Shown: one piece after another, positions 16,054 through 57,552 of the stretch
Layout of the letters: each line of letters begins with the position of its first letter
Position numbering within the stretch: position 1 is the first letter of the stretch
DNA from: Halomonas sp. CUBES01
Lineage (GTDB): Bacteria > Pseudomonadota > Gammaproteobacteria > Pseudomonadales > Halomonadaceae
Direction of reading: 5' to 3'
DNA: 64,000 bases
Assembly (NCBI RefSeq): GCF_020991005.1
Contig: NZ_JAJLLW010000005.1
Span: 124,001 to 188,000, forward strand
The notes under the pieces: generated by a model
The model's database searches: none
What the model was told of the DNA's origin: nothing
Seen by the model: the letters and a program-made list of their open reading frames with translations, nothing else
Position numbers and translations under genes: made by a program

Positions 16054-16055
16054 GC

Positions 16056-39831: not shown

Positions 39832-40101
39832 ATGTCGCGCGTTCAAATTCGTTATTGCACTCAATGCCAGTGGCTGCTACGGAGCGCCTGGTACGCGCAG
39901 GAACTGCTCTCTACCTTTGGCGAGGCGCTCAATGAAGTGGCGCTTTCCCCCGCTCACGGCGGTACCTTTGAAATCTGGTGCGATGAGCACTTGCTGTGGG
40001 AGCGCAAGCGTGACGGTGGCTTTCCCGACATCAAGGTGCTCAAGCAACAGGTACGCAACCATGTCGAGCCTTCCCGCGACCTGGGGCACACCGACCGATG
40101 A
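39832..40101 (+). CDS. SelT/SelW/SelH (Rdx) family protein
   Basis: 89 residues. Thioredoxin-like fold with the redox motif CTQC at 9-12 in VQIRYCTQCQWLLRSAWYAQELLSTF, where selenoproteins W have Cys-x-x-Sec. Conserved GGTFEIWCDEHLLWERKRDGGFPDIKVLKQQVR follows. Probably a cytoplasmic thiol-redox protein. Its stop overlaps the start of the downstream EamA gene by four bases. Confidence 0.9.
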   Translation: MSRVQIRYCTQCQWLLRSAWYAQELLSTFGEALNEVALSPAHGGTFEIWCDEHLLWERKRDGGFPDIKVLKQQVRNHVEPSRDLGHTDR

Positions 40102-40964
40102 ACCAAGATCGTCGAGCGATTCTCTATGGCCTGGGGGCGGTGGCCCTTTGGTCCACCGTTGCCACCGCCTTCAAGGTGGCGCTGGCCTGGATGTCGCCGC
40201 TGGAGCTCATGTGGCTGGCATCGCTGGTGTCCTGGGCGCTGATGGGCGCCATCGTGGTCTATCAAGGCCACGCCAGAGTGGCGCTGAGCAAAGGCTGGAA
40301 GACCGCCGCCTGGGCCGGTCTGATGAACCCGGTGGGCTATTACCTGGTACTGTTTGCCGCCTATGACCGGCTGCCCGGCCAGGAGGCCATGGCGCTCAAC
40401 TACACTTGGGCGCTGGCCATGGCGTTTCTGGCGGTGCCATTGCTTGGCCACCGCCTGACCCGCACGGATGTGGCCGCCGGGCTGGTCGCCTACTCGGGCG
40501 TATGGGTGATAGCCACCCGTGGCGATGTGTTCAACGTCAATTTTGCCGACCCTCTCGGCGTGGTTTTTGCCCTGGCGTCCACGCTGCTATGGGCGCTTTA
40601 CTGGCTGCTCAACGCCCGCGACAAGCGCCCGCCGCTGGTCGGCCAGTGGCAGAACTTTACCGTCGGCCTGCCGGTACTCACGCTGCTGCTGTTAGGGGGC
40701 CCTGGCTTTCAATGGCACAGCGGCCCGGCACTGCTGGCCGGTATCTACGTCGGGCTGTTCGAGATGGGAATCGCGTTCATCCTGTGGCAGCTGGCGGTAC
40801 ACAAGGTCTCGCGCACCGCCAAGGTGTCGAACCTGATCTTTCTGTCGCCGCCGGTGTCATTAGTTTTATTGGCGTTGGTAGTGGGTGAAGCAATACGAGC
40901 TTCAACATTGGCCGGGCTCGTATTAATACTTGTTGGCTTGGCGTTGCAACAGCGTCGCAAGTGA
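40098..40964 (+). CDS. DMT/EamA-family transporter
   Basis: 288 residues, ten predicted helices in two EamA repeats (ILYGLGAVALWSTVATAFKVAL; LGVVFALASTLLWALYWLLNARD; LSPPVSLVLLALVVGEAI). Coupled (ATGA overlap) to the SelT-like gene. Substrate unknown. The last ~100 bases already drop in GC content, marking the left edge of the cellulose island. Confidence 0.85.
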   Translation: MNQDRRAILYGLGAVALWSTVATAFKVALAWMSPLELMWLASLVSWALMGAIVVYQGHARVALSKGWKTAAWAGLMNPVGYYLVLFAAYDRLPGQEAMALNYTWALAMAFLAVPLLGHRLTRTDVAAGLVAYSGVWVIATRGDVFNVNFADPLGVVFALASTLLWALYWLLNARDKRPPLVGQWQNFTVGLPVLTLLLLGGPGFQWHSGPALLAGIYVGLFEMGIAFILWQLAVHKVSRTAKVSNLIFLSPPVSLVLLALVVGEAIRASTLAGLVLILVGLALQQRRK

Positions 40965-40970
40965 TTGTTT

Positions 40971-41044
40971 TTTTCGTCACCTATTGAATGATGAGTGCAG
41001 GTCATATAAAAGTATCAAAAAATTAGGGTCACAGTACTTTTCAG
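40971..41044 (+). repeat. bcs upstream repeat, copy A (promoter region)
   Basis: AT-rich segment homologous, almost without gaps, to 44229-44304. Both have TTGAATGAT, then 17 bases later GTCATATAAAAGTAT, then an A-run and (A)GGGT(C/G)AC(A/G)GTA. The TTGAAT and TATAAA-like boxes suggest promoters. Here it precedes the decayed operon copy. The rest of 40965-41169 has no gene. Confidence 0.7.
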
Positions 41045-41169
41045 AGGAGAAGACAAAGAGTGCCCAATGAGATTTCCCGTGTGAAGTGATATCACCTTTT
41101 CCTTGCACAGGCGTCTTTAAAGGCTATGCAAATAGCAATAACGCAGGGCTATGGAAAACTAGTCGTATA

Positions 41170-41328
41170 CACACCGAGATGACGCTGTAACCTGGGTAAT
41201 GGTAAGCAACTTCTATTTGTATGCGTTAATCTTTAATGATCAATTTTTTGGAGTAGATTTTGAATAGCCTGGTGATAGTAGAACGAAGCGTGGATGCTTG
41301 CTTTAGTATTCAAGGAGGAAGTGTGTAG
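41170..41328 (+). pseudogene. relic of the 3' end of bcsQ
   Basis: The segment just before bcsA copy 1 aligns with the end of the intact bcsQ (about 45550-45716). Nucleotide matches include the TATACA..CG.GATG.CGCTGTA-type stretch near 41171-41200 and AATGATC near 41236. The last 22 codons (41263-41328, then TAG) read NSLVIVERSVDACFSIQGGSV against DNLARVTLSTNARFSSQGRGI in bcsQ. Stops and gaps upstream show that it is dead. It proves that the upstream bcsA came from a duplicated bcsQ-bcsA unit. Confidence 0.75.
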
Positions 41329-41329
41329 C

Positions 41330-43678
41330 ATGGAGAAGTCTTTATATAAGTGCTGGGTCGCTTTATTTGTTTTTTTCTATAGTATCGTCTTCACCTTAGT
41401 CATTACAACACCTATGAGTTTAGAAAATCAATGGGTGTTTGGTGGTATGACAGCTTTTCTGCTTATATGTATGGGTAAAACGGGCTCCAGACGTTTTCGT
41501 CTAGCTATGGTACTTTTGACGGCTATTACGTCTACCAGGTACATGTATTGGCGTGTCACGGAAACACTCGTTACAGAAGGGTTTGCAGAGGCCGTATTGA
41601 GCTTAGGTTTGTTAGCGGCTGAATGCTATGCCTGGCTCGTACTAATTATCAGTTTCTTTCAAACCGGAAGGCTTCTAGAAAGAAAAATCGTTCCGTTACC
41701 TGACGAGACATCTGAATGGCCGACGGTTGATGTCTATATTCCCACTTATAATGAAGGGATGGAGGTTGTCAGGGATAGTGTGCTGGCAGCTCAAAATCTG
41801 GACTATCCAAGTAACAAGTTAAATATTTATCTGTTAGACGATGGGAAAAGACCAGAGTTTGGTGCTTTTGCCTCTAAGGCAGGTGTGGGCTATATCACGC
41901 GTGATAATAACGAGCATGCCAAAGCGGGTAACTTGAATAACGCTCTCAAGGTTACGAGCGGCGAGCTGATTTGTATATTTGATTGTGACCACATCACAAC
42001 AAGAGCTTTTTTACAAGCAACGGTAGGTGCTTTTTTAGACGACGAAAACTTGGCGCTGATTCAGACGCCACATCATTTTTATTCGCCTGATCCTTTTGAG
42101 CGCAACCTAGCCAGTGGTCGCGATATACCGCATGAAGGCAACCTTTTTTACGGCGCAATTCAAAAAGGCAACGATTATTGGAATGCCACTTTTTTCTGCG
42201 GCTCATGTGCGGTAATACGTCGCTCCGCTTTGCACGATACGGGCGGGTTTGCCGTTGAGACGGTTACTGAGGATGCACATACGGCCTTGAAACTTCAGCG
42301 GAAAGGGTGGTCAACTGCGTATTTGGGCATACCCTTGGCGGCTGGTTTGGCAACCGAGCGCCTATCACTGCACATTGTTCAGCGCGCACGTTGGGCGAGG
42401 GGGATGACGCAAATAATGCGTAGGGATAACCCCTTGCTTGGCGCTGGCCTGACATTTGCTCAGCGGTTATGTTATCTGAACGCCTTGCTCCATTTTCAGT
42501 TCCCTCTAGCGCGTTTTGTGTTTTTGACAGCGCCGTTAGCTTATTTATTATTTGGCTTGAATATAATCGAAGCCTCTCCCCAGGCTATTGCAGCGTATGT
42601 GTTGCCACACTTGTTTGGAGTGGTTTACACCAACGCTAAGCTGGTGGGTCGTTACCGCTATACGTTCTGGAACGAGATTTACGAAACGGTGTTAACCTTC
42701 CATCTGTTAAAGCCAACGTTGGTGACACTGTTTGATCCCAAGCGTGGGAAGTTTGATGTGACCGATAAAGGGGGTGTTTTAGCCCATAGTTTTTTTGATT
42801 TTAATGCTTTGCGACCGCATCTTTTTGTATTAGTGCTGCTGTTAGCTGGGGTTATATGGAGTACGTTTCGGCTTGTTTGGTGGAATTCGGGTGATGAACA
42901 GCTGAGCGTTCTGCTGTTTAACGTTATTTGGGCATCGTTCAGCGCGCTTTTCCTTCTGGCGGCGGTCGCCGTAGGGAGTGAACAAAAACAGGTAAGGGAG
43001 TATGTGCGAATTGATCTGGAGGTTCCTGCGGTTATTCATCTTGAAGGTGAATATACATTAATGACATCCACCCAAAACCTATCTATGGGTGGTGTTCAAC
43101 TTGAAACACCTCCAGGTCTGCCTGGTGATGCTTATATAGAATATATAGAAATGTCGTTTGATAATAGGCCAATGCTTTTTCCTGTCGAAATGGTTATGCA
43201 AGATAAGAACCATATACGGCTGAAATTTCATGATTTGCATGTAAACCAGAGACGCGAGCTAGTTAAGCTGGTGATGGGAAGAGCCGATTCCTGGCTAGAA
43301 AAAGGAGAGGTGCACCAAGACAAACCGATTCGTTCGATTATCACCGTTGTTCGAGCAGTGGCAGGTTTGTTTTTCAAACGTTGGAAGGAGCACACACTTT
43401 TCAGTGGTGGTGCGGGTGGCGGTCAAAAGAGCCGAGCAATGGCCAGCAATGGCATTACCAGTGGAGCGGTAGCGACGACATCAAAAAGTATGTGGGCTTG
43501 GAGAGCACTCCTGGTTGCTTTGATTGTGTTAGGTATTATTTCAAGCCAACGGGCGTGGAGCCTAACACCCGGTGAAGGGCGCTTACCTCTCGATAACCAG
43601 ATATTACAAAGCGTGAACAAAGAATGCAGCGCTACCGATGCGACAGACAACGATGTCGTGAAAGACGCCGCAACATAA
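41330..43678 (+). CDS. bcsA: cellulose synthase catalytic subunit BcsA, copy 1 (cut-off BcsAB)
   Basis: 782 residues, roughly 93% identical by eye to the first 745 residues of the fused BcsAB at 45718. GT2 domain residues are kept: DDG at 170-172, DCDH at 218-221, TED with D315, and QRARW at 351-355. The PilZ domain has RxxxR (REYVR) and NLSMGG, so c-di-GMP activation is expected. The chain continues through the hydrophobic segment that serves BcsB as signal/anchor (WRALLVALIVLGIISSQRAWS), then diverges and stops 38 residues later. It therefore lacks BcsB. AAGGAGG lies 11 bases upstream. Whether it is expressed and pairs with another BcsB is unknown. Confidence 0.88.
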   Translation: MEKSLYKCWVALFVFFYSIVFTLVITTPMSLENQWVFGGMTAFLLICMGKTGSRRFRLAMVLLTAITSTRYMYWRVTETLVTEGFAEAVLSLGLLAAECYAWLVLIISFFQTGRLLERKIVPLPDETSEWPTVDVYIPTYNEGMEVVRDSVLAAQNLDYPSNKLNIYLLDDGKRPEFGAFASKAGVGYITRDNNEHAKAGNLNNALKVTSGELICIFDCDHITTRAFLQATVGAFLDDENLALIQTPHHFYSPDPFERNLASGRDIPHEGNLFYGAIQKGNDYWNATFFCGSCAVIRRSALHDTGGFAVETVTEDAHTALKLQRKGWSTAYLGIPLAAGLATERLSLHIVQRARWARGMTQIMRRDNPLLGAGLTFAQRLCYLNALLHFQFPLARFVFLTAPLAYLLFGLNIIEASPQAIAAYVLPHLFGVVYTNAKLVGRYRYTFWNEIYETVLTFHLLKPTLVTLFDPKRGKFDVTDKGGVLAHSFFDFNALRPHLFVLVLLLAGVIWSTFRLVWWNSGDEQLSVLLFNVIWASFSALFLLAAVAVGSEQKQVREYVRIDLEVPAVIHLEGEYTLMTSTQNLSMGGVQLETPPGLPGDAYIEYIEMSFDNRPMLFPVEMVMQDKNHIRLKFHDLHVNQRRELVKLVMGRADSWLEKGEVHQDKPIRSIITVVRAVAGLFFKRWKEHTLFSGGAGGGQKSRAMASNGITSGAVATTSKSMWAWRALLVALIVLGIISSQRAWSLTPGEGRLPLDNQILQSVNKECSATDATDNDVVKDAAT

Positions 43679-44228
43679 CCAAGGCACGGAATAAGCGCCG
43701 TGTCCGCCTGATAAGTGGCTACCCAAAAGCATTGCCAGCGCACGTTATTGGCGTATGTGGTATCCAATAAGTACTACGGTGTCTTACCGTTTTAACGGCA
43801 ATGCCAGGTCTTTGCGTGCTATGGGCTGACATCTTTGCAACAGCATCTTGGCCCACTGGATGGCGCAGGTAAGAGCGCATTGAACCGCCATGCTGATCGA
43901 GGTTTACGCCAGCTTTGGCTGGCGACTCCCCTGATTCAATCCGTTGAGGAAACGCTCCAAGTCAAAGGCATTGCTCGTCACTTTAAATGAGGTCGAAGGG
44001 AACGGGTGTCAGACCAACACCACGCATTCGCGACAGTGCCGACCTTCAGTAATGATGACTCCCGCACGCTTTAACCCTGTGAAGTGGGAAGAGACGTCAT
44101 CTGGCTGAAGATGACGGCCTAAGCGTGATGATTGGATCGCATGCCTCGTCTGTTTTGGCTAGGTCTTGCAACAGTATTGCGAGGGTATGTGTACTTTTGT
44201 GTACTAGTATTGCCCAACGTATATTTTT
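43679..44228 (+). other. region without an intact gene behind bcsA copy 1
   Basis: About 550 bases between bcsA copy 1 and the second promoter repeat. Only a short open stretch is noticeable (about 43808-43990), encoding a 63-residue fragment that ends in LIQSVEETLQVKGIARHFK; it has no start and I do not recognise it. It could be the scar of the deletion or of an insertion element, but I see no terminal inverted repeats. Confidence 0.4.
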
Positions 44229-44304
44229 TTTTCATCACCCCTTGAATGATAGCCGTAAGTCATATAAAAGTATTAAAAATATAAGGGTGACGGTATTCAC
44301 TCAG
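44229..44304 (+). repeat. bcs upstream repeat, copy B (promoter of the intact operon)
   Basis: Homologue of 40971-41044, with TTGAATGAT at 44242-44250 and GTCATATAAAAGTAT at 44259-44273. It precedes the bcsR/P-like gene by about 85 bases and is the probable promoter of the functional cellulose operon. Nothing else is visible up to 44388. Confidence 0.7.
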
Positions 44305-44388
44305 CTCCAAGGAAAAGGAACGTTCAACGCGACTGACCGTGTAATGACCGTCATCATAGCCGTTACCTTTGGGGTCAGAGTGTTGATT

Positions 44389-44937
44389 ATGCAAAAAGAT
44401 ACCGATATAGAGGCGTTAAAAGGGCAGGCGGATCGAGAATTCGAGTATAGACAGTTTGAAAAGGGGGCGAGAACCAGCAGTAACAAGAGTCGTTGGAAGC
44501 TACTTGAGGGTGTCACAAACTGGTCACCTGGTTTGAAGTCGACACCTCGGCATCGTACGGCTATCAAAGATGAGTCCAGGCTTGATGGCGATGGCCGGGA
44601 ATCACCTGGACAAGCGACGCAAGTAACTCAGCATGAAATGGGTGTGCCGCCATTGCTGGCGGAAGCGCCTGTTCCAAAGCATGATCTCTTCAAGGCAACG
44701 TCTCCCTTGCCGGATACCTCTGCCGAAGAAGCACCCGTTCACCGAATGAATGAACAGCAACAGGCGCCAGAAGGTGCTAATGATGGTCATCATTTGCCTC
44801 CGTCGAGTTCATCAACCAAAGCAGCATCAGCTCAGTCTTTCGGAGGTCTGTTCAAAGATTACGCCGATGATGGTCAAGATACCAAAAGTGCCCGTAATAC
44901 TCCTTTAAAAGATTTACTAAGGCAAATTGACTCATGA
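44389..44937 (+). CDS. BcsR/BcsP-like cellulose biosynthesis accessory protein
   Basis: About 182 residues from the ATG at 44389; the open frame begins at 44125 but its first part runs through the promoter repeat. The N-terminus DIEALKGQADREFEYRQF...SRWKLLEGV matches the pattern of BcsR (DIxALKxxF...Y...RWxLL). A long polar, proline-rich middle follows and the end is FGGLFKDYAD...PLKDLLRQI, as in BcsP proteins. These small factors bind BcsQ and regulate or localise the synthase. Its stop overlaps bcsQ (ATGA). Confidence 0.65.
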   Translation: MQKDTDIEALKGQADREFEYRQFEKGARTSSNKSRWKLLEGVTNWSPGLKSTPRHRTAIKDESRLDGDGRESPGQATQVTQHEMGVPPLLAEAPVPKHDLFKATSPLPDTSAEEAPVHRMNEQQQAPEGANDGHHLPPSSSSTKAASAQSFGGLFKDYADDGQDTKSARNTPLKDLLRQIDS

Positions 44938-45716
44938 CTTTGATTTGTATGACATCGCCTAAAGGTGGGGTTGGTAAGACAACGCTAACAGCTAATTTAG
45001 CGTACACATTTCAACGCCAGGGTAAGCATGTCACCGTAATTGATTTTGATAGCCAAGATGCTCTTAAGCTACACTTTGGCTTTTCATTTGATGACACCGA
45101 AGGCTTTGTGGCTGAAGGTCAACAGCTTTCGTCTTGGGAAAATCTCGTTATACAGACTCATAATGGTATTAACGTGCTGCCTTATGGAAGGGCCAGTCGC
45201 GAAGACCGGTTGGCTTTTGAGAACTATTTAAAGACTCCGGGAAAGCTGGAAGAAGCGCTTTTTCCTTTTTATCAAGGAGAAAACAATGTGCTGCTTGTTG
45301 ACTTGCCTCCAGGGCATTCGGGAGCATTGGACGCTCTCTCAAGACTGAACCCGATATTTCTCACCATATTAATGGCAGATGGTTCGTCGTTGGCAGTGCT
45401 GCCAACCATAGAGAATGGTGATTTCTTTCCTGTGGAAGTAGAGGATAATATCTATTTCGTCATCAATCAGCTTGATATGCGTCAGCGCCTAAGTGTCGAT
45501 GTATATGACTTGTTAAGAAGCCGGTTAGGGCCGTTATTGCTAGGTTCTATACATCGGGATGCTGCTGTACCCGAGGCGCTGGCAGCGCAAACATCCATCT
45601 TTCAACATGCGTACTCATCTTCTGTTATCAATGATCTTGAGCAAATAGTAGATAACCTGGCAAGGGTAACACTGAGTACGAATGCTCGCTTTAGCAGTCA
45701 AGGAAGGGGCATTTAG
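44934..45716 (+). CDS. bcsQ: cellulose synthesis ATPase BcsQ
   Basis: 260 residues, ParA/MinD-type ATPase. Deviant Walker A SPKGGVGKTTL at 8-18, DFDSQDALKLHFG (switch I), LLVDLPPGHSGALDAL (Walker B). In E. coli BcsQ with BcsR stabilises the synthase and places it at the pole. Both ends overlap or abut neighbours: ATGA with the BcsR/P-like gene and a 1-base gap to bcsAB. Confidence 0.92.
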   Translation: MTLICMTSPKGGVGKTTLTANLAYTFQRQGKHVTVIDFDSQDALKLHFGFSFDDTEGFVAEGQQLSSWENLVIQTHNGINVLPYGRASREDRLAFENYLKTPGKLEEALFPFYQGENNVLLVDLPPGHSGALDALSRLNPIFLTILMADGSSLAVLPTIENGDFFPVEVEDNIYFVINQLDMRQRLSVDVYDLLRSRLGPLLLGSIHRDAAVPEALAAQTSIFQHAYSSSVINDLEQIVDNLARVTLSTNARFSSQGRGI

Positions 45717-45717
45717 T

Positions 45718-48700
45718 ATGCAAGGTCTTTTATATAAATGCTGGGTTGGCTTTTTTTTACTATTATACAGTATTGTTTTTATCGTGGTGATGTCGACCCC
45801 CATGGGGTTGGCAAACCAATGGGTATTTGGCGGTGTAACAGTTTTACTGCTTATATGCATGGGGCAAACCACATCCAGACGTGTACGTCTGGCCATGGTG
45901 CTGTTGACGGCCATTACTTCAACTCGGTACATGTACTGGCGTGTTACAGAGACTCTCGTTACAGACGGTATTGCAGAGACAGTTCTGAGTACAGGCTTGT
46001 TGGCAGCTGAGTGCTATGCCTGGCTCGTTCTAATTATCAGTTTCTTTCAAGTCGGACGGCTTCTGGAAAGAAAAATCGTTCCGCTACCTGACGATACCTC
46101 TGGATGGCCGACAGTTGACGTCTATATTCCAACGTACAATGAAGGTATGGAGGTTGTCAGGGATAGCGTCCTAGCGGCTCAAAACCTGGACTACCCCAGT
46201 GACAAGTTAAATATTTATCTGTTAGACGATGGAAAAAGACCAGAGTTTGGTGCTTTTGCCTCCAGGGCAGGCGTGGGCTATATCACGCGTGATAATAACG
46301 AGCATGCCAAAGCGGGTAACTTGAATAACGCTCTCAAGGTTACGAACGGCGAGCTGATTTGTATATTTGACTGTGATCACATCACAACAAGAGCTTTTTT
46401 ACAAGCAACGGTAGGTGCCTTTTTAGATGACGAAAACTTGGCGCTGATTCAGACACCACACCATTTCTATTCGCCTGATCCTTTTGAGCGTAATCTAGTC
46501 AGTGGTCGCGACATACCGCATGAAGGCAACCTCTTTTACGGTGCGGTTCAAAAGGGCAACGATTATTGGAATGCCACTTTTTTCTGCGGCTCATGTGCGG
46601 TAATACGCCGATCTGCGTTGGATCAAACGGATGGGTTTGCCGTTGAGACGGTTACCGAAGATGCTCATACAGCCTTGAAGCTTCAACGTAAAGGCTGGTC
46701 AACTGCTTATCTGGGTATACCCCTGGCGGCTGGCTTGGCGACCGAGCGCCTATCACTGCACATTGTTCAGCGAGCGCGTTGGGCAAGGGGGATGACGCAG
46801 ATAATGCGTAGGGATAATCCCTTGCTTGGCGTTGGCCTCACATTTGCGCAGCGATTGTGTTATCTGAACGCCATGCTCCATTTCCAGTTCCCTCTAGCAC
46901 GTTTTGTTTTTTTGACAGCACCTTTAGCGTACTTGCTGTTCGGCCTGGATATCATTGAAGCCTCTCCCGAGGCTGTTGCAGCGTATGTGCTGCCGCACTT
47001 GTTTGGAGTGGTTTACACCAATGCTAAATTGGTGGGCCAGTATCGTTATACGTTCTGGAACGAGATTTACGAGACGGTGCTGACTTTTCACCTGCTAAAG
47101 CCAACGCTGGTGACACTGTTTGATCCCAAGCGAGGGAAGTTCGATGTAACAGATAAAGGGGGGGTTTTAGATCATAGCTTTTTTGATTTTAATGTATTAA
47201 GGCCCCATCTCTTCGTATTGGTGCTGTTGCTGGCAGGCGTTATATGGGGCACATTTCGGCTTTTTTGGTGGAATTCGGGTGATGAACAGCTAAGTGTTCT
47301 GCTATTTAACGTTATTTGGGCATCGTTCAGCGCGCTTTTCCTTCTGGCGGCAGTTGCCGTAGGGAGTGAACAAAAACAGGTAAGGGAATATGTGCGAATT
47401 GACCTGGAGTTTCCTGCGGTTATTCATCTCGAGGGTGAGTATACATTGCTGACGTCTACTCAAAATCTATCCATGGGAGGGATCCAAGTGGAAGCGCCTT
47501 CAGGCCTGCCTGATGATGCTGATATAGAATATATAGAAATGTCTTTCGATAACAAGCCGATGCTCTTCCCTGTTGAGTTGATTATGCAAGATAAAGATCA
47601 CATACGCCTGAAATTTTATGATCTGGACGTAAACCAGAGACGCGAGCTCGTAAAGCTGGTGATGGGAAGAGCCGACTCCTGGTTAGAAAAAGGCGAGGCA
47701 CACCAGGACAAGCCGATTCGTTCGATTATTACCGTCGTGCGAGCAGTGGCAGGCTTGTTTTTCAAGCGTTGGAAGGAGCGTGCACTTTTTAGTGGCGGGA
47801 ATGGTGGTGGTCAAAAGAGCCGAGCAATGGCCAGCAATGGCAATGCTAGCGGAGCGATAACGACGACATCAAAAAGCACGTGGGCCTGGAGAGCGTTCCT
47901 GGTCGCTTTGATTGTGCTAGGCATCATTTCAAGCCAGCGGGCATGGAGCCAAACAGTTGATGAAAATAGCGTACCTCCGACTAGCCAAGTACTCCAAGGT
48001 GTTGATGCAGAGGATGACCCTCTTCAAGACCAGGAAAATGAACTTCCAAGTTCTTTTCTCTCCAATGCTCTGCCATCAGTCGGTCTGGATGCAGAGGGTG
48101 AGCTGGACTTTGGTAATGCCGTTTCGCCTGGACTAGAGTCGCGCGAGCACGTATTTCCATTGCAGCACTCAATGCATGAAAACGGGGGAGGAGAGAATCC
48201 CGTAAGAATTCAGGGTAATGGTTCTCAAGTAGGTCTGGATTTTTCAATCAGTAGCAGCGAAGTAGTAACAGATGCAACATTGAACCTGGAAATACAGTAT
48301 TCCGATGCCATGCTCGAAGGGGTTAGCCGGTTAGACATCGTTCTAAATGGTGTCATTATCGATACAATTCAACTAGATCGTTTCAACGCAGAAGGCTATG
48401 TTGCCGAGATCGAGGTGCCGCCTGAACAGATAGTGACATATAACACATTGCTCTTGAGCGTTAACGGGCAAACGTTATCTCAATGTAATAATGTGCTCAG
48501 TGAAGATATCTGGGTAGAGGTAAATCCTGACTCTTCGTTAAATGTGAGTACACAGGTGTTGCCGCCTATTGTCGACTTGTCCAGGTTCCCTGCACCGTTT
48601 TTTGATGATGCTGCTATGGAACGACTCAGCTTGCCGTTTGTATTACCGGATGAACCTTCAGAACCCTTGCTGGCTGCCGCTGGAATAGTGGCTTCACAGT

Positions 48701-50274
48701 TTGCCGTGTTCTCGAGTTTTCGTGGTGCGGATTTTCCTGTTCATCATGATCAGCTACCCAACAGTCATGCGGTGGTAATGGGAACCAGACAAGAGATGCC
48801 GTTGGGGGTGCTGCTTCCCGAGACTATTTCGGGTCCTACCATACTTCAGTTACAACATCCCGATGATCCGCTATATCGGCTGCTGGTATTGACAGGGCGA
48901 AACGATCAGGAAGTGAGAACAGCGGCACGTTATTTGACACAAAGGCATGAAAGCTTCAGCGGTCAAAGCATAAAGGCTGAGAATATACCTGTAGAGCCCC
49001 GCCAAGCCTTTGATGCGCCCAAATGGCAATCATTGGATGAGCCGATTTATCTTGAAAGTCTTGTAAATAATGAAGATATGATGCGGGGAGAAGGCGTGAG
49101 GCCTGCTCCACAGCGCTATAGTTTTCGTCTGCCACCCTTGTTTGTCTGGGCCGGTGACGACGTGGGTTTACAGGTCAATTATCGTTTTCCACAGGGTGAG
49201 TGGCTGGATATTGACGAATCTCGTCTCGAAGTAAGTCTGAACGAGCAGTACCTTGATGGTTTGCCTGTCGAGAAAGATTCGATAGCGTGGGATATATGGA
49301 AACTGTTAGGTAATGATATTCGCCAGGAAGAAGCCGTTTTGCAAATTCCGCAAGAGCAACTTTATGGCAATAACCAGTTGACTTTCTACTTTAATATGGG
49401 GGTTCACCTGCCTGAAGAAGGTTGCGATCTTGGTCTGCCTGAAGAGATTGAGACGCGAATCTTGCCTCAATCCCATATCGATTTGCGCGAGGCTCATAAA
49501 TTCGCTGCCTTGCCTGAACTTTCCTATTGGGTCAGCGCTGGCTACCCCTTTACTCAGTGGGCTGATCTCTCTCAAACGTCGCTACTAGTGCCTGAAGTAC
49601 CGCAAGAAAGTGAAATCAGTGCGGCACTGGGGATGGTGGGGCGAATGGCAAATGCGGCAGGTTATCCCAGCTATGGCCTCGATATTAGAAAGGGGCTTGA
49701 TTTAAGCGGTTCATTGGCAAATCGCGACCTCTTGGTTGTCGCGCTGTCAGACAGTATCGAACAGAGTTCGTTGAATGGCCTGATGGATCCTTTTGCCATT
49801 GAAGGTGAAACGGTGAGCATTGAGCCCTCTAATCTGTGGCAGAAAATTAAAATGTGGGCGAAAGCTGATTTATCGACCGATACGGAAAGGGCGAGGAACG
49901 AGCTGACCGCACAGGCGCCTCAGCAGGCACTCATGGCCACCCGCTCACCACTCAACGATAGCCGCAGCATGATTGTAGCCACCGGGTTCAGTGATAATGC
50001 TATTAGGCAATTTACGAGCGTTATTGACCAGCCCGAGATCAGCAACCAGTCCGTAGGGGATCTGGTAACCATTGATGAAAACGATGTTGAGTCCTACCGA
50101 GTCGCGGAGCAACGAATTCGAGGCGACATTAGCTGGAATCGCTTAGTCCGTTGGTACGCCGGTCAGTACATTATTCCCATATTGCTGCTGATGGCCGTCG
50201 TGGTCTTGCTAACGGCTCTTGTGCTGCATGGCACATTGAATCGTCGTGAAAAACAGCGCATTCACAGTAAGTGA
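45718..50274 (+). CDS. bcsAB: fused cellulose synthase BcsA-BcsB
   Basis: 1518 residues. Residues 1-745 are BcsA: N-terminal helices, GT2 core (D170, D171, D218/D220, D315, QRARW 351-355), further helices, and PilZ with R556xxxR560 and NLSMGG for c-di-GMP. A membrane segment (WRAFLVALIVLGIISSQRAW, about 720-742) replaces the BcsB signal, and BcsB follows to the end: carbohydrate-binding and flavodoxin-like domains, and the C-terminal anchor YIIPILLLMAVVVLLTALVLHG. It polymerises UDP-glucose into beta-1,4-glucan and passes it into the periplasm. Such fusions are known from AcsAB of Komagataeibacter. AAGGAAGGGG ribosome site. Confidence 0.95.
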   Translation: MQGLLYKCWVGFFLLLYSIVFIVVMSTPMGLANQWVFGGVTVLLLICMGQTTSRRVRLAMVLLTAITSTRYMYWRVTETLVTDGIAETVLSTGLLAAECYAWLVLIISFFQVGRLLERKIVPLPDDTSGWPTVDVYIPTYNEGMEVVRDSVLAAQNLDYPSDKLNIYLLDDGKRPEFGAFASRAGVGYITRDNNEHAKAGNLNNALKVTNGELICIFDCDHITTRAFLQATVGAFLDDENLALIQTPHHFYSPDPFERNLVSGRDIPHEGNLFYGAVQKGNDYWNATFFCGSCAVIRRSALDQTDGFAVETVTEDAHTALKLQRKGWSTAYLGIPLAAGLATERLSLHIVQRARWARGMTQIMRRDNPLLGVGLTFAQRLCYLNAMLHFQFPLARFVFLTAPLAYLLFGLDIIEASPEAVAAYVLPHLFGVVYTNAKLVGQYRYTFWNEIYETVLTFHLLKPTLVTLFDPKRGKFDVTDKGGVLDHSFFDFNVLRPHLFVLVLLLAGVIWGTFRLFWWNSGDEQLSVLLFNVIWASFSALFLLAAVAVGSEQKQVREYVRIDLEFPAVIHLEGEYTLLTSTQNLSMGGIQVEAPSGLPDDADIEYIEMSFDNKPMLFPVELIMQDKDHIRLKFYDLDVNQRRELVKLVMGRADSWLEKGEAHQDKPIRSIITVVRAVAGLFFKRWKERALFSGGNGGGQKSRAMASNGNASGAITTTSKSTWAWRAFLVALIVLGIISSQRAWSQTVDENSVPPTSQVLQGVDAEDDPLQDQENELPSSFLSNALPSVGLDAEGELDFGNAVSPGLESREHVFPLQHSMHENGGGENPVRIQGNGSQVGLDFSISSSEVVTDATLNLEIQYSDAMLEGVSRLDIVLNGVIIDTIQLDRFNAEGYVAEIEVPPEQIVTYNTLLLSVNGQTLSQCNNVLSEDIWVEVNPDSSLNVSTQVLPPIVDLSRFPAPFFDDAAMERLSLPFVLPDEPSEPLLAAAGIVASQFAVFSSFRGADFPVHHDQLPNSHAVVMGTRQEMPLGVLLPETISGPTILQLQHPDDPLYRLLVLTGRNDQEVRTAARYLTQRHESFSGQSIKAENIPVEPRQAFDAPKWQSLDEPIYLESLVNNEDMMRGEGVRPAPQRYSFRLPPLFVWAGDDVGLQVNYRFPQGEWLDIDESRLEVSLNEQYLDGLPVEKDSIAWDIWKLLGNDIRQEEAVLQIPQEQLYGNNQLTFYFNMGVHLPEEGCDLGLPEEIETRILPQSHIDLREAHKFAALPELSYWVSAGYPFTQWADLSQTSLLVPEVPQESEISAALGMVGRMANAAGYPSYGLDIRKGLDLSGSLANRDLLVVALSDSIEQSSLNGLMDPFAIEGETVSIEPSNLWQKIKMWAKADLSTDTERARNELTAQAPQQALMATRSPLNDSRSMIVATGFSDNAIRQFTSVIDQPEISNQSVGDLVTIDENDVESYRVAEQRIRGDISWNRLVRWYAGQYIIPILLLMAVVVLLTALVLHGTLNRREKQRIHSK

Positions 50275-50298: not shown

Positions 50299-53200
50299 AT
50301 GCAAAATTTTTTCAATACGCTTGCACCGGCAACATATAAAAAAAGAGTTTTGATCGGTGCACTGGCATGCAGCTTGCCGGGCGGTATGGCACTTGCCCAG
50401 GAAAATACGTCGAGTGCGTTAAGCGCACTGCTGAACCAAGCCGATTATTGGCAAGAAAATCAGCGTCCCGATCTTGCCAGAGAAGCCCTGGAACGTTATC
50501 TCGATGGGCGTCCCGATCACCCGGAGGTGCTCTACCGGTTAGCAAGACATGCGCTGATGAATGATGATATTGCTGAAGCGCAGGAATGGATCAACCGCCT
50601 TGAGCAGCTCGATGGCAATGATCCACGTCTTGTGGATTTAAGGCGGTTAGAGAGAGGGAAAAACATCGACAGTAATCAACTGTCGCGTGCCAGGCAGTTG
50701 GCTCAAAACGGGCAGTATAAGGAAGCGGCCCGAATATATAGCGACCTTTTCAATGGTGATATGCCCTCCCGATCGCTTGCCGTTGAATACTATCAAACGT
50801 TAGCGGGCACTAGCGATGCAGGCTGGCGCGAGGCTCGTGACGGACTGCAGGAATTCAATGACGATTATCCTGATGACCAAGAGCTAGCCCTAGCATTAAG
50901 CGAAGTATTGACGTACCGGGAAGGCACCCGTCGCCAGGGTATCAAACAGCTGGCAACCCTGTCCCGATCCAACAATGATAGCGTGGCTGAAGAGGCCCGG
51001 GATGCCTGGAGGCAAGCGCTCCTATGGCTCAGTGCCACGCCTGCGGATGAACAGCTTTATGCTGCATATCTGGATGAGTTTCCTGAAGATACGTCTGTTG
51101 AAGAGCACTATGAAACGTCGACAACCGAAACTCGTCGGGGGACAGGTTATAGCGCCATGGCATCGAATGATTTAAGCGATGCGGAAGAGGCGTTTCAAGA
51201 CGCATTGGAAGAAGATCCCGATGATGCAGAAGCAAAAGCAGGGTTAGGGATACTGCGTCTTCGCCAGCAACGTTTCAACGAAGCACGTAATTTACTTGAA
51301 GAGGCGATTGACGAAGCGCCGGAACAACGTGATGAGTGGATGCCCGCTTTTCAAAGTGCTTCCTTTTATGCTCGCTTGTCGGAAGCTCGCCGGCTGGCTG
51401 ATGCCGATAACCTTGAGCGCGCGCTATCCACGGTTCGTCCATTGACTCAGCAAGGTGGGGCGTCCGGTCGCTCCGCAAGACTGCTTGAAGCCGATATCTT
51501 AAAGCGGCAACGTCGTTTAGATGCCGCAGAAAAAGCCTATCGTCGTATTCTTAACGACTGGGACAACAATGCAGATGCACGGTTAGGGCTAGCCCAGGTC
51601 CTGGCAGAAAAAGGAAATTGGCGTGAAGCGCAGCAGGTTGCTCAAAGCTTGCCCAGTAACATGCGTGATCAATTAAGTGGTTTGGCATCCAGCCAAGTGA
51701 ATGAGCTGCGCAGGCGTGCCGAAAGCGGTGATGCGTTTGATGCGGAGACAGCTCTGCGTCAGGCCATCGAGCTATCTCCCCGGGATCCGTGGGCACGACT
51801 GGATTTAGCCCGCTTGCTTGAAGCTCAAGGCCGAGAGGAAGAGGCTCAAGCAACGATCTCAGCGCTTGACCGCCCTGATGCAACCCCTGAGCAGCGATAT
51901 GCGTATGCGCTTTACTCCTCGGAGAACGACCAATGGGCTGAAACTCAGCGCGCCCTGTCCAGCATTTCGACAGACGAAATGACGAATCCGATGCGTGAAT
52001 TACGCCAGCAGGCTGCTCTTCAGCAACCGCTTCAAGAGGCCCTTGAGCAACTGGCAAGAGGTAACCGCAGAGCGGCGTTCGGAACACTGGATAGACTCTA
52101 TGCAGACAATCCTGACTTGAGTCCGCGCCAAGTCGGTCAAGTGGCAAGCATGCTGAACGAGGCAGGAGAAACGCAAGAAGCGGCCCGTTGGGTTGATAGG
52201 GACTTGGCGCAAGGCCTCAACCCTGAATATGCCAGCGCTTATTTGAATCACGCACTGGTTCTGGCTCGGCATGGACGACCCGGTGAAGCTAACCAGCTGT
52301 TAGAGCGGGTAAGACAGCAGGACAATAGCCTGCTGCCCCAGGATGAACTTGAGCGTGTCGAAAATGGCATTGCCGTCATAGATGCAGATCGCTTGCGTCG
52401 CAATGGACAGTTGGCCAGTGCTTACGATGCTGTTGCAACGCCACTGCGTGAACAGCCAGATAATGAAGAGCTGCTATTGGCAATGGGCAGAATATACGCA
52501 GACGGAGAACGTTATTCCCAGGCCGAGCAAATATACACCTACGCATTGACTCGTCATCCGGACAGTGGCCCCGCATTGCAGGGAGCTGTACAGACGTCGT
52601 TGGCGTCAGGTCGTCCGCAAAAAGCCCAGCAATTACTTGATCGCTACCAGCAAGGTTCGGATACGCCTGAAATGTTGCTCCTGAAGGCGCGGGTTGCCCG
52701 GAGTAATGGCGATTCCAGCCGGGCACTGGCTCTGTTGTCAAAGGCACGCCAATCGCTGGGAGGCAGTGGAGGACGCACACTGGCATTATCGTCCTCGAAT
52801 CCATTTACCAACAGTTCGCGGAATGACCAGTCCGGCAGTAATGACCGGCCGACCTGGCTACCGGGAGGCAGCGACCGACCTGTCGCTAGCAGCAGCGAAA
52901 GGGAGATGGCGAGAGCGCCCAGTGTAAGAGAACAGATTGACAGTTTGGCGCGCGAAATTCGCTACGAACGTGCACCCCGTCTAGGTGGAGAATTTGCTTT
53001 CAATTTCCGTGACGGTGAGAGCGGGTTGAGTGAGCAGAACCGGGTTGAAGCACCGGTCAGCTTCTCTGCAACGCCATTTGGAGAGGGCCGTTTTGATGTC
53101 ACCGTGATACCGACGAGTGTCGATGCGGGTACGCCCACCGGGAATAGCGTTCAACGCTTTGGTCGCAGTGCGCTCGCCGAGAGTGCGGGTACTCTGGATC

Positions 53201-54462
53201 AATCGCTTAACGGGCTGACCCCGATTCTGGATGAGATCGAGTCATCCGTGACGAGTTTTTTTGATGCCCAGAACCGCTTGGAGACCGCTCAGGATAATCC
53301 TGACATCCCTGAGTCTGAAATAGATCGGCTTACCGCTGAGCTTGAAGAAGCTGAATCCAACTACAACTCAGCGCTGGATCGAAACCCTGTTTACGAAGCA
53401 GGTTTAAGAATCGCGGATTTGACCCAGGCGCAGCGTGATGTGTTCGCGGACTACCTTGGCGAGCAAGGCGTCGACTTTGATGCGCTGGCGCTAGATGGTA
53501 CGTCTGCAGAAAGTTTCGCGAACAGCCGCGAGGTTATTGAGTCCTCGCTATCTGATATCCAATCTCGCCTGCAAAGCGCAGCCCAGGCTGCCCGACCTGG
53601 CAGTCAGCGTGAATCCGGGGCGGCATTGGCAATGGGCTATGAATATGGCGATGTCGACGTTGATATTGGTAGCACCCCGTTGGGCTTCGATGAAACGAAT
53701 ATCGTCGGTGGCATTAACTGGACACCCAATATCACCGAAAACACATCGCTTTCATTTACTGCCGAGAGAAGGGCCGTTAAAGACAGCTTGCTGTCGTATG
53801 CAGGTGCTCATGATGCACAGACCGGCGATAGCTGGGGGGGCGTGGTGCGCACCGGTGGACGACTGGGTATCAACTATGACACGCCCAGTGGTGGCGTCTA
53901 TGCAAATGCAGGCGCCTATGAATATACGGGTAACAATGTAGCCGATAATACCGCCTACGACGTATCACTTGGTGGCTATGCACGTCCAATCAACAGCGAA
54001 AAGCGTGAGCTGCAAACTGGTATCAATGTGTCGGCCATGGCCTACGATCAAGACCTAAGTCACTTTACCTACGGTCACGGCGGGTACTTCAGCCCTCAAG
54101 ATTACGTCAGCGTCTCATTCCCTATACGTTACCAGGAGAATGTAAGCGACGATTTATCATGGGCTGCTCAGGTATCGCCTGGCTATCAGAGCTACAGCAC
54201 GGACGATATTGATTACTTCCCGACTGATCCATCATCGCAAGCGTTGCTGGATGTGTTCTCGACGCTGATTGCTGGGAGCGAGTCGCGTTACTCGGGGGAA
54301 AGCGTGAGTGGTGCAGGCGTTTCAGCGTCAGGGGAGGTGGAATACAACATGACACCTGAGCTTTCTATGGGAGGCCGGGTAGGCTTCAATAGCTTCGGTG
54401 ACTATGAGGATGTATCCGCCGGAATGTTCATCAATTATACCTTTGGAGGTGGTAGTGACTAA
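50299..54462 (+). CDS. bcsC: cellulose export outer-membrane protein BcsC
   Basis: 1387 residues. Signal peptide with cleavage near ALAQE (about 34). Residues ~40-850 are TPR repeats (e.g. NQADYWQENQRPDLAREALERYL; AEEAFQDALEEDPDDAEAKAGLG), forming a periplasmic scaffold. A Ser/Asn-rich linker follows at about 830-885. The C-terminal part is the BcsC beta-barrel (YERAPRLGGEFAFNFRDGESG; IDIGSTPLGFDETNIVGGINW-like; final YTFGGGSD). A coiled-coil-like stretch of about 135 residues (969-1104) sits between the first strand region and the rest of the barrel; it is absent from the BcsC proteins I remember. Makes the outer-membrane pore. Confidence 0.93.
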   Translation: MQNFFNTLAPATYKKRVLIGALACSLPGGMALAQENTSSALSALLNQADYWQENQRPDLAREALERYLDGRPDHPEVLYRLARHALMNDDIAEAQEWINRLEQLDGNDPRLVDLRRLERGKNIDSNQLSRARQLAQNGQYKEAARIYSDLFNGDMPSRSLAVEYYQTLAGTSDAGWREARDGLQEFNDDYPDDQELALALSEVLTYREGTRRQGIKQLATLSRSNNDSVAEEARDAWRQALLWLSATPADEQLYAAYLDEFPEDTSVEEHYETSTTETRRGTGYSAMASNDLSDAEEAFQDALEEDPDDAEAKAGLGILRLRQQRFNEARNLLEEAIDEAPEQRDEWMPAFQSASFYARLSEARRLADADNLERALSTVRPLTQQGGASGRSARLLEADILKRQRRLDAAEKAYRRILNDWDNNADARLGLAQVLAEKGNWREAQQVAQSLPSNMRDQLSGLASSQVNELRRRAESGDAFDAETALRQAIELSPRDPWARLDLARLLEAQGREEEAQATISALDRPDATPEQRYAYALYSSENDQWAETQRALSSISTDEMTNPMRELRQQAALQQPLQEALEQLARGNRRAAFGTLDRLYADNPDLSPRQVGQVASMLNEAGETQEAARWVDRDLAQGLNPEYASAYLNHALVLARHGRPGEANQLLERVRQQDNSLLPQDELERVENGIAVIDADRLRRNGQLASAYDAVATPLREQPDNEELLLAMGRIYADGERYSQAEQIYTYALTRHPDSGPALQGAVQTSLASGRPQKAQQLLDRYQQGSDTPEMLLLKARVARSNGDSSRALALLSKARQSLGGSGGRTLALSSSNPFTNSSRNDQSGSNDRPTWLPGGSDRPVASSSEREMARAPSVREQIDSLAREIRYERAPRLGGEFAFNFRDGESGLSEQNRVEAPVSFSATPFGEGRFDVTVIPTSVDAGTPTGNSVQRFGRSALAESAGTLDQSLNGLTPILDEIESSVTSFFDAQNRLETAQDNPDIPESEIDRLTAELEEAESNYNSALDRNPVYEAGLRIADLTQAQRDVFADYLGEQGVDFDALALDGTSAESFANSREVIESSLSDIQSRLQSAAQAARPGSQRESGAALAMGYEYGDVDVDIGSTPLGFDETNIVGGINWTPNITENTSLSFTAERRAVKDSLLSYAGAHDAQTGDSWGGVVRTGGRLGINYDTPSGGVYANAGAYEYTGNNVADNTAYDVSLGGYARPINSEKRELQTGINVSAMAYDQDLSHFTYGHGGYFSPQDYVSVSFPIRYQENVSDDLSWAAQVSPGYQSYSTDDIDYFPTDPSSQALLDVFSTLIAGSESRYSGESVSGAGVSASGEVEYNMTPELSMGGRVGFNSFGDYEDVSAGMFINYTFGGGSD

Positions 54463-54937
54463 CACTAACGTTAATACGGCAACCTATCTTTCTTATTACA
54501 CTGAACGTCACTGTAGCCCGCAGTGGAATCGCTTCCTGGCGTTGGTATTCGATGAATTGATGACCCAAACGGATCGCGAAGGGGCATCGGGTTTTTTGCG
54601 ACACATAGGCAGCCGGCTGGCTGCCGAATGGCCGCTAGGAGAGTATGAAACGCTCGAAGCCCTGGAGCTTTCAATCAATGGTGCACTCAACCAGTTGGAT
54701 TGGGGATGGGTCAGCATACGTCCAGAAGGTAATCATCTGTCCATCCAGCACGTTGCCTTTCCTGTTCCAGGAACGACAGAGCACACCCTGGATAAAGCCT
54801 TTCAGGCTATGTCAGCCGTGCTGGAAGGCTTGTATACGACATGGATCAACGAGCAAGGCGGTAGCGGAAAAACACCGTTGCGGTGTGTTGATACAAACGT
54901 CACACTACGCTCAATGACCTTTCATTACGGTCAGTGA
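54455..54937 (+). CDS. bcsD: cellulose synthase subunit BcsD
   Basis: 160 residues from a GTG start inside the bcsC end (8-base overlap), chosen because GGAGG lies five bases upstream; AcsD of Komagataeibacter is 156 residues. TATYLSYYTERHCSPQWNRFLALVFDELM opens the chain, and WPLGEYETLEALELSINGALNQLDWGWVSI follows. BcsD forms a periplasmic octamer that helps bundle glucan chains into crystalline ribbons. Its presence marks this as a type I-like bcs operon. Confidence 0.88.
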   Translation: MTNTNVNTATYLSYYTERHCSPQWNRFLALVFDELMTQTDREGASGFLRHIGSRLAAEWPLGEYETLEALELSINGALNQLDWGWVSIRPEGNHLSIQHVAFPVPGTTEHTLDKAFQAMSAVLEGLYTTWINEQGGSGKTPLRCVDTNVTLRSMTFHYGQ

Positions 54938-54966: not shown

Positions 54967-55992
54967 ATGAAGATGATACCGCTAAGCGCCATGACGGTTC
55001 TTGCATCCCTGATGGTTGGCAGCGGTATCAATACCGCCAACGCGGAAGAAACATCCATGGATGACGCTTGGTCGGCGTATGTCAGTCGTTTCGTGGCGGA
55101 AGAAGGGCGGGTCATCGACACCGGTAATAACAATATCAGCCACTCTGAGGGTCAGGGTTGGGGAATGATGCTGGCCCAGCATTACGGTGATCAACGAACG
55201 TTCAAGCAACTTTGGCGGTGGACTCGCCGGGAACTGGGGCGTCAAGACGTATCGCTATTTTCTTGGCGATATGACCCGAATGAAACGCCACCCGTGCGGG
55301 ATAACAACAACGCGGCGGACGGTGATCTCTTCATCGCCTGGGCATTACATTTGGCGGGTCAGCGCTGGGAAAATCGCAACTACACCAATGCGTCAAACAG
55401 CATAAGGCGTGCTATCGCGGATGAACTGGTCGTTGATCTGGCAGATTATACGGTGCTCCTGCCAGGGCTCGAAGGCTTTAAGCATAGCGACAATGTGGAT
55501 ATTAACTTGTCGTACTGGTTTGTGCCCGCCATGCAGGATTTTGCGGACATAGCGCCGGAAGAGCCATGGGAAGCGTTGATCAATGATGGCGTGAAACTTC
55601 TCGATGAAACCACGTTCGGGCAATACCGTCTTCCAACTGACTGGGTAACGTTGACCGATGACGGTGCTGTTTCTCCTGCAGATGAATGGGAACCACGCTT
55701 CAGCTTTGATGCCGTTCGAATTCCGCTTTATTTCGCTTGGGGACAACGTGATGAAGCGGCCAGCATTGGCAGCATCATGGCGTTTTGGAACGACCCTTCA
55801 AACCAGCCCGCTTCTGCCTGGATTGATGTCCAATCCGATGAACGTGCTGACTACCCCATTTCGCGCGGGGTGAAAGCCATACGTGCGTATGTAAACAACG
55901 AAACGCTGCCGGATCCTGTGCCAACAGAAGATGATGACTACTTCTCCGCCACCCTGCTGCTGCTGGCTCATATGGCAAATGATATGCAGTAA
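54967..55992 (+). CDS. bcsZ: periplasmic endo-1,4-beta-glucanase BcsZ (GH8)
   Basis: 341 residues with a signal peptide (cleavage after ANA, about 26). GH8 catalytic residues are present: E61 in SHSEGQGWGMM (acid) and D248 in FSFDAVRIPLY (base), the equivalents of E55 and D243 in E. coli BcsZ. It trims misplaced glucan during synthesis. Last gene of the operon, 29 bases after bcsD; in E. coli and most type II operons bcsZ lies before bcsC, so the position here differs. Confidence 0.93.
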   Translation: MKMIPLSAMTVLASLMVGSGINTANAEETSMDDAWSAYVSRFVAEEGRVIDTGNNNISHSEGQGWGMMLAQHYGDQRTFKQLWRWTRRELGRQDVSLFSWRYDPNETPPVRDNNNAADGDLFIAWALHLAGQRWENRNYTNASNSIRRAIADELVVDLADYTVLLPGLEGFKHSDNVDINLSYWFVPAMQDFADIAPEEPWEALINDGVKLLDETTFGQYRLPTDWVTLTDDGAVSPADEWEPRFSFDAVRIPLYFAWGQRDEAASIGSIMAFWNDPSNQPASAWIDVQSDERADYPISRGVKAIRAYVNNETLPDPVPTEDDDYFSATLLLLAHMANDMQ

Positions 55993-56096: not shown

Positions 56097-56768
56097 CTAA
56101 TTGGGCAGCAGAGTATCGTAAAGCGCCTCCCATACCGTATCCAATATGATCGGCTGCGCCTCGGCGGTGGGGTGGATGCCGTCGTCCTGCATCAGGTCGT
56201 CCTCGGTGGCGACGCCTTCCAGCAAGAAGGGCACTAGCGCCACATCGTATTTATCGGCAAGCGCGTGATAAACGTTAGTAAACGCCTCGCGGTAAGCCTC
56301 GCCGTAATTGGGGGGAATATCGATCCCCAGCAGTAACACTTCGGCATCGGCGGCCTGGCTGGCCTCGATCATACTCGCCAGGTTGCGTTGCATCTGTTGC
56401 GGCGGCAGGCCGCGCAACCCGTCGTTGCCGCCAAGCTCCAGCAGAACGATATCCGGCGCGTGCTGTCTCAGCAGGTCGTCTATCCGTTGCGCCCCGCCCG
56501 AGGTGGTTTCTCCGCTGATGCTGGCGTTGACCACCGTCGCGTCATCCGGCAGGCGTGCTTCCAGCAGGGCGACCCAGCCTGCTTCACGTTCGATGTTATA
56601 CGCCGCACTCAGGCTGTCGCCCATCACCAACAGGGTCGGCGCCGAGCCGGTGTCGGGGTCATCGGACGCAGCGTTGACTGGCGAGGCGGCGGTGGCTATC
56701 AGCACCCCCAGCCACAGGGTTAGTATGCAGTAATGTTTTCGCCATGCCACAAGGATGCCATGCTTCAT
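56097..56768 (-). CDS. tesA: arylesterase / acyl-CoA thioesterase I (TesA type)
   Basis: 223 residues with a signal peptide ending near NAASD (about 35). SGNH hydrolase: block I LVMGDSLSAAYNI with S52, block III LELGGNDGLRG, block V DDGIHPTAEAQ. Periplasmic esterase/thioesterase/lysophospholipase. GAGGAGTAAGAC ribosome site. Its 5' end overlaps the divergent ybbA, an arrangement also known from E. coli. Confidence 0.92.
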   Translation of the reverse strand: MKHGILVAWRKHYCILTLWLGVLIATAASPVNAASDDPDTGSAPTLLVMGDSLSAAYNIEREAGWVALLEARLPDDATVVNASISGETTSGGAQRIDDLLRQHAPDIVLLELGGNDGLRGLPPQQMQRNLASMIEASQAADAEVLLLGIDIPPNYGEAYREAFTNVYHALADKYDVALVPFLLEGVATEDDLMQDDGIHPTAEAQPIILDTVWEALYDTLLPN

Positions 56769-57552
56769 GTCTTACTCCTCATCAGACTCACCTGAACCGA
56801 CCGCGAATGCGGGCCGGCAACGCGTACTCCATGCGGAAAACCTTACCAAACGCGTTACCAGCGGCGAGCGTACGCTGACCATCTTACACGACCTATCGTT
56901 GAGCGTGGCAGCCGGAGAAAGCGTGGCGATTCTGGGCAAGAGCGGCGCGGGTAAATCGACCCTGCTCGGCCTGCTCGCGGGCCTGGACACTCCCAGCGAC
57001 GGCGAGCTGAGCCTGTTCGGCCATCCGCTCAGCCGGCTGGATGAAGACGGCCGTGCCTCGTTGCGCGCCGGCCGGGTGGGCTTCGTGTTCCAGAACTTCC
57101 AGCTGCTGCCGACGCTCAGCGCGCTGGAAAACGTGCTGCTGCCGCTGGAGCTATCGCCCCGCGCAGGCGAGACCGACACCGCCGCCCAGTGGTTGGGCCG
57201 CGTGGGCCTGGGCGAACGCCAGGGCCACCTGCCCAAACAGCTCTCTGGCGGCGAGCAGCAGCGCGTGGCCATCGCCCGCGCCTTTGTGTCCGACCCCGAG
57301 CTGGTGTTCGCCGACGAGCCCACCGGCAACCTCGACCCGGACACCGGCGCGCAGATCATCGACCTGCTGTTCAGCCTCAATCACGAGGCGGGCACCACCC
57401 TGATTCTGGTCACTCACGACCACGCTCTGGCGCGCCGCTGCGATCGCTGCCTGCGCCTTATCGATGGTCACCTGGCGGCCTTCGACCCGCATACGCTGGC
57501 CAGCGATACCTTGGTCGATGATTCGACGACCGACGAAGAGGCCCGTCCATGA
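56755..57552 (+). CDS. ybbA: ABC transporter ATP-binding protein YbbA
   Basis: 265 residues. Walker [10 protein letters not shown], signature [15 protein letters not shown], Walker [13 protein letters not shown]; LolD/MacB-like subfamily. The start is either the ATG at 56755 or the in-frame one at 56767, which follows AAGGA by 11 bases. Either way the start overlaps that of the divergent tesA. The stop overlaps ybbP by four bases. Confidence 0.9.

Follow-up and report, generated by a model that had tools for sequence, protein, structure and literature searches.

Organization of the bcs region

The window analyzed here, 64,000 nucleotides of DNA from the 3.6 Mb genome of Halomonas sp. CUBES01, contains a bcsQ-bcsAB-bcsCDZ cellulose operon preceded by a second, truncated version of its front part. 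From left to right, and all on the forward strand, an eamA transporter gene (40098–40964; Pfam EamA) is followed by an upstream repeat, a relic of bcsQ, a free-standing bcsA gene (bcsA1), the relic of an IS66-family transposase gene, a faint repeat of the eamA tail and a second upstream repeat. Beyond these lie a bcsR/P-like gene (44389–44937), bcsQ (44934–45716; Pfam CBP_BcsQ, TIGR03371), bcsAB (45718–50274), bcsC (50299–54462; Pfam BCSC_C), bcsD (54440–54937, in a frame that opens at 54398; Pfam Cellsynth_D) and bcsZ, which encodes a GH8 endoglucanase (54967–55992; Pfam Glyco_hydro_8). The bcsR/P-like gene shows weak similarity to genes in the same place in relatives, among which it is poorly conserved (28–55% in tblastn matches), and it has no Pfam or NCBIfam match. 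Further downstream, at 56097–60119, the window carries GC-rich genes for a GDSL lipase, an ABC ATPase and an FtsX-type permease; DNA resembling part of this segment is also found 3′ of bcs in the loci L013–L016 and L102 of our comparison set.

The bcsA1 reading frame (41294–43678, copy 1) has its likely start at an ATG at 41330, 5′ of which lies an AAGGAGG, and thus encodes a free-standing BcsA of 782 amino acids with GT2 and PilZ domains that ends in the signal/anchor helix of BcsB and a short tail. The corresponding frame of the operon (45682–50274, copy 2; likely start 45718) is a single bcsAB fusion of 1530 residues; the original prediction gave the gene order of copy 2 as found here, except that bcsA and bcsB there form one frame. 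The DNA of 41294–43567 aligns with 45682–47955 at 86% identity (2274 bases each, alignment length 2275), and the two BcsA proteins are 88% identical over 787 residues, which replaces an earlier estimate of about 93%. The homology had been expected to run through the BcsB signal/anchor and then end, and the DNA alignment indeed stops just past that helix, 37 codons ahead of the copy 1 stop.

Similarity also exists upstream of the coding regions. The upstream repeat (40968–41036 and 44226–44295) spans 70 bases at 80% identity, a score reached by none of 200 shuffles; together with the DNA alignment it bears out the prediction that a promoter-to-bcsB segment is present twice. Within it, a TTGA-N17-TATAAAA-like element (40984–41011 and 44242–44269) is found in both copies and in six relatives, using a pattern written after viewing the alignment. 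Because a scan for consensus promoters, which listed five sites against a shuffle mean of 7.5, does not include the repeat, the case for a promoter is solely one of conservation. A second, fainter repeat at 44155–44190 matches the 3′ end of eamA (40933–40968) at 72%, with a score reached in one of 200 shuffles under strict scoring and in none of 200 under looser scoring. An Rfam scan of 40850–45000 found no riboswitch or other known RNA up to an E value of 1.

Between its upstream repeat and bcsA1, copy 1 retains the predicted bcsQ relic (41230–41328), which aligns in register with the final 33 bcsQ codons at 64% and contains an in-frame stop. Fainter similarity may extend it back to about 41168, although 5 of 200 shuffles reach that score under looser scoring. 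Apart from this weak extension, relics of bcsB, bcsP or the 5′ part of bcsQ were not detected above shuffles in the gap or the leader; likewise, a shuffle-controlled comparison of 41037–41229 with the bcsR/P-like gene revealed no similarity.

The 3′ end of copy 1 is marked by a decayed insertion element. When 43679–44225 was compared with 82 genomes of the genus, matches appeared in three besides its own, and the match in L092 falls within a transposase with Pfam DDE_Tnp_IS66. The similarity to tnpC of relatives, which identifies the relic (43629–44095) as IS66-family, lies in three collinear blocks, at 43629–43671 (88%), 43705–43965 (67–73%) and 44027–44095 (74%), the second of which contains single-base gaps and an in-frame stop; the rest of the genome has one other match to this transposase, a partial one. 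Because the first block shares the reading frame of bcsA1, the last ~17 residues of BcsA1 are transposase-derived. Hence the BcsB of copy 1 is cut after the signal/anchor helix (residues 721–739, mean hydropathy 1.9), with transposase sequence in its place. The predicted losses from copy 1 therefore stand, in that the bcsR/P-like gene, most of bcsQ and BcsB are gone or decayed, but the IS66 relic at the truncation had been missed. The date at which BcsB was lost is less well fixed; the decay of the IS66 relic argues against a recent loss, except if the relic had already decayed when bcsB became joined to it.

Origin of the second copy

Both copies belong to protein clusters of two members each and are also placed on a single contig of 3,641,888 bases, suggesting that they also occur together in another assembly. 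The length of that contig, greater than that of the whole present assembly, speaks against an artefact of assembly. Among 82 genomes of the genus, 9 have a BcsA match at an E value of 1e-100 or below, and only this genome has two; likewise, for 78 bcs loci of named genomes in a public genome scan, the searched flanks contained no second BcsA. Two of the eight other BcsA-bearing genomes have damaged loci. One of these, G027 (locus L004), was considered as a parallel case of a solo bcsA and set aside, because its single operon copy is cut by an inserted transposase-like gene; the insertion in its bcsA (ORF 486–1430) carries a frame of 314 residues that is transposase-like by eye. In the other, G030 (locus L081, Halomonas olivaria TYRC17, ~9187–20723), bcsQ, bcsA, bcsC and bcsD are each split into several frames, and bcsC contains ~1.6 kb without bcsC similarity, reflecting either real decay or sequencing error.

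A tandem duplication, as originally predicted, is one way to arrive at this arrangement. It is also worth considering that copy 1 may be a second allele from a sister lineage, imported by recombination in eamA and trimmed at the IS66 element, and several observations point in this direction. The nearest genome by ettA (G043, 95%) has no bcsA match and carries other frames 3′ of eamA, and DNA similarity to it and to four other bcs-less relatives ends at 40858–40868, inside the eamA 3′ end, where the C-terminus encoded in our genome departs from those of the five relatives, which resemble each other. Positions 40858–40868 are thus likely to be a recombination edge, and the tail of eamA lies 5′ of copy 1 just as its faint repeat lies 5′ of copy 2. 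Furthermore, the dS between the copies (0.66) is like that between species and exceeds the values to G043 for three genes (0.23, 0.46 and 0.50); if rates are alike, the two copies probably diverged no later than the split from G043. The third-position GC content of the bcs genes (0.41–0.51) differs from that of eamA and ettA (0.77–0.79); however, in four relatives most bcs genes are also GC-poorer than eamA, and composition alone is therefore no proof of import.

Phylogenetic comparison provides evidence on both sides. A FastTree phylogeny makes the two copies sisters with support of 1.0, and over codons 1–740 trees that separate them are rejected (AU p 0.008 and 3e-5), which speaks against import from a sister lineage. 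Codons 81–160 favor a grouping of copy 2 with L004 and L081, although the sister tree is not rejected there (AU 0.088). No closer source for copy 1 emerged among the matches listed: the 120 hits listed for it include no non-self protein above 60% identity, in a set whose length filter excludes proteins above ~1390 residues and hence fused ones, and the best fused relatives of copy 2 among its listed matches, ranked against copy 2 only, reach 82% and 81%. Import of a sister allele is thus an explanation to which we give appreciable, if minority, weight. The doubling of the segment and the sister relationship in whole-gene trees agree with the original prediction of a tandem duplication, but an origin within this lineage is not separable from sister-allele import; the data are compatible both with a tandem duplication that took place in a donor or an ancestor and with two sister alleles having been imported one after the other.

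Constraint on bcsA1 and its possible role

The bcsA1 gene has been under purifying selection, a conclusion that is well supported. Over 746 codons the bcsA pair has a dN of 0.049 and a dS of 0.66, with differences by codon position of 63/26/221. The resulting dN/dS of 0.074 is far from the value near 1 that the original prediction had named, together with a lack of transcription, as the mark of pure decay. In a custom-written branch codon model of seven sequences (copies 1 and 2, L004 and L013–L016), in which four starts gave the same optimum, copies 1 and 2 had dN/dS values of 0.112 and 0.063, against a background of 0.052; these values are imprecise because comparisons with the nearest outgroups are saturated at silent sites. 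Nonetheless, a ratio of 1 for copy 1 is rejected (LRT 18.3, p 2e-5), in keeping with the earlier view that the intact frame reflects selection. When copy 1 was fixed at other values, 0.08 and 0.15 lost less than 1 lnL unit, 0.20 lost 1.8 and 0.06 lost 3.4; of the values tried, those at or below 0.06 and at or above 0.20 all lost at least 1.8.

Although the copy 1 ratio is nearly twice that of copy 2, equal ratios are not rejected (p 0.39). Protein change has nonetheless been faster on copy 1: over columns with a residue in at least 60 other rows, 36 polarised residue changes fall on copy 1 and 8 on copy 2, with 33 unplaced (33, 8 and 24 within residues 1–746). Reading the faster N-terminus of copy 1 as an adapted BcsB interface was rejected, as this region also varies between copy 2 and L004. 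In an alignment of 238 BcsA relatives, a set with many closely related members, 195 columns are conserved at 97% or more; each copy departs at six of these, and five of the departures are shared.

The features of a working synthase are also retained. BcsA1 scores 855.5 bits against TIGR03030 (cut-off 699.1), matches the BcsA chains in the PDB (E 1e-193), and scores 811.3 bits against NF008558, where copy 2 scores 811.1 and both lie under the cut-off of 992. BcsA proteins are characterized by the GT2 motifs DDG, DCD, TED and QxxRW and the gating loop FxVTxK, and their PilZ domain binds c-di-GMP through RxxxR and [DN]xSxxG. As had been predicted of the catalytic and PilZ residues, the motifs checked are present in both copies: DDG at 170, FDCDH at 217, TED at 313, QRARW at 351, FDVTDK at 475, and, within a Pfam PilZ match, REYVR at 556 and NLSMGG at 583. 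What copy 1 does not have is a BcsB domain (Pfam), and a search of the genome for BcsB gave one match, inside copy 2.

We propose that the stripping of an operon copy left a free-standing bcsA1, that the copy of the operon promoter in front of it would drive its transcription, and that its product would be an active, c-di-GMP-gated catalytic subunit of cellulose synthase. BcsA1 would pair with the BcsB half of BcsAB, which could become available to it if BcsAB is processed like the AcsAB of Gluconacetobacter, and the outcome would be a larger or more diverse catalytic pool. The constraint on the GT2 and PilZ domains, the intact motifs, the retained promoter-like element and the good ribosome site make an active extra subunit the best reading, and our confidence that bcsA1 encodes such a c-di-GMP-controlled subunit, borrowing BcsB from BcsAB, is evenly balanced. 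Weighing against this reading are the faster protein change of copy 1 and the presence of two BcsA matches in just 1 of 82 genus genomes. In addition, BcsB is reported to be essential, with the apparent requirement lying in its C-terminal anchor and an amphipathic helix (PMC6740014), and copy 1 has neither of these. A more specific version, in which BcsA1 acts in trans with BcsB released from BcsAB, so that a single cell forms complexes with two different catalytic subunits under separate expression control, the second operon copy having been stripped to its catalytic gene, is one that we put forward tentatively and consider somewhat unlikely.

BcsA1 might instead be kept as a non-catalytic or regulatory subunit, one that acts as a c-di-GMP sink or reduces cellulose output by competing for BcsB. 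The intact RxxxR and NxSxxG motifs of PilZ and the missing BcsB would suit such a role, but the catalytic motifs checked are intact as well and the GT2 core belongs to the more strongly constrained segments between the copies: with domain bounds set by hand, pairwise dN/dS is 0.044 in the GT2 core and 0.065 in PilZ, and only TM5–8 is lower (0.031). We consider a regulatory role unlikely.

The silent sites raise the question of whether the frame could have been maintained by copy 2 rather than by selection on copy 1 itself. In windows of 40 codons, silent divergence between the copies ranges from 0.115 to 0.83, and that of each copy from L004 and L081 is ~0.5–1.0. The longest run of silent identity (24 columns, codons 186–217, 41885–41980) is a candidate gene-conversion tract, reached by 34 of 10,000 permutations, and the variance among windows is reached by 10 of 10,000. 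None of five control pairs has an unusual run, although one of them (L013/L015) is likewise uneven in variance (p 0.0085). Past gene conversion between the copies is thus likely. That conversion from copy 2 has preserved the frame of a copy 1 without its own function is, however, improbable. With the low-divergence tracts removed (codons 155–320 and 510–575), dN/dS for copy 1 is 0.110 and neutrality is still rejected (p 1e-4), and constraint is strong in unconverted stretches, as in codons 451–510 (dS 1.43, dN 0.015); because dN/dS is low where silent sites have strongly diverged, gene conversion cannot explain it.

The bcsQ relic that adjoins bcsA1 has decayed neutrally and serves as an internal yardstick, making the claim of selection unusually clean for a single genome. 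Its 33 codons show differences about equally at all three positions (13/9/14), and 9 of 33 second positions are changed against 26 of 746 in the bcsA pair (p 5e-6). Compared with the bcsQ of copy 2, the relic is altered at 18 of 32 residues and the bcsQ of L004, although more distant, at 8 of 32 (p 0.02). The second-position distance of the relic (0.35, range 0.15–0.73; 9/32) nearly equals the dS of 0.34 that the codon model assigns to the copy 1 branch, so the bcsQ of copy 1 has probably been dead for most of that branch. In substitution-only simulations of neutral change at a divergence of 0.34, a mean of 17.5 stops arose in 740 codons; at 0.05 the mean was 3.7, with 2.2% of runs stop-free, and at 0.1 the chance of none was 0.003. 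Copy 1 has none, the stops and frame gaps being in the adjoining bcsQ and IS66 relics. That copy 1 is a recent pseudogene yet to acquire a stop, as its lost partner genes, the cut in BcsB at the IS66 relic and its faster protein change might suggest, is very improbable given this lack of stops, the dN/dS of 0.074–0.11 and the neutrality of the bcsQ relic over a comparable divergence. Taken together, the interpretation first offered for this locus is partly supported; besides the IS66 relic, it had overlooked the patchiness of divergence at silent sites and the repeat of the eamA tail.

Relation to known cellulose synthase loci

BcsA has been reported to need BcsB, so a constrained BcsA that lacks a BcsB of its own is notable as a test case. 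If bcsA1 has outlived bcsQ and bcsB under strong constraint, it would provide a natural test of whether BcsB can be shared in trans, and it also bears on how the number or composition of synthases is tuned. Should complexes with two catalytic subunits exist, mixed synthase complexes would have a counterpart in bacteria.

There are precedents for additional and for truncated bcs genes (PMC6559206, PMC7112194). Komagataeibacter species have multiple operons, bcs1–bcs4, that include a truncated bcsAB2 (PMC6559206); as described there, the likeness lies in the extra synthase genes, one of them disrupted, but those are separate operons, whereas here the extra gene is directly 5′ of the operon, shares an upstream repeat with it and is without BcsB. 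A survey of cellulose loci counted 24 locus duplications and 29 duplications of whole operons, the duplicated operons being at least 10 kb apart (PMC7112194). The present case resembles its within-operon locus duplications in that a bcs locus occurs twice within 10 kb, although none of its cases considered here is a truncated promoter-to-bcsB repeat. In the open-licence literature, we found no report of two bcsA genes in one operon or of a stripped but constrained bcsA directly 5′ of a bcsAB operon. BcsA-like proteins described as orphan occur in pseudomonads (PMC10237404), but according to that description these GT2/GH17 proteins are less than 41% identical to BcsA and carry GH17, whereas BcsA1 is a true BcsA. 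The closest parallel for copy 2 is the AcsAB of Gluconacetobacter/Komagataeibacter, which is proteolytically processed into AcsA and AcsB (PMC4877109). Like AcsAB/BcsAB of those bacteria, copy 2 is fused and has an internal signal/anchor helix between its halves, where processing is putative; unlike the fused protein, copy 1 consists only of the BcsA half up to that helix.
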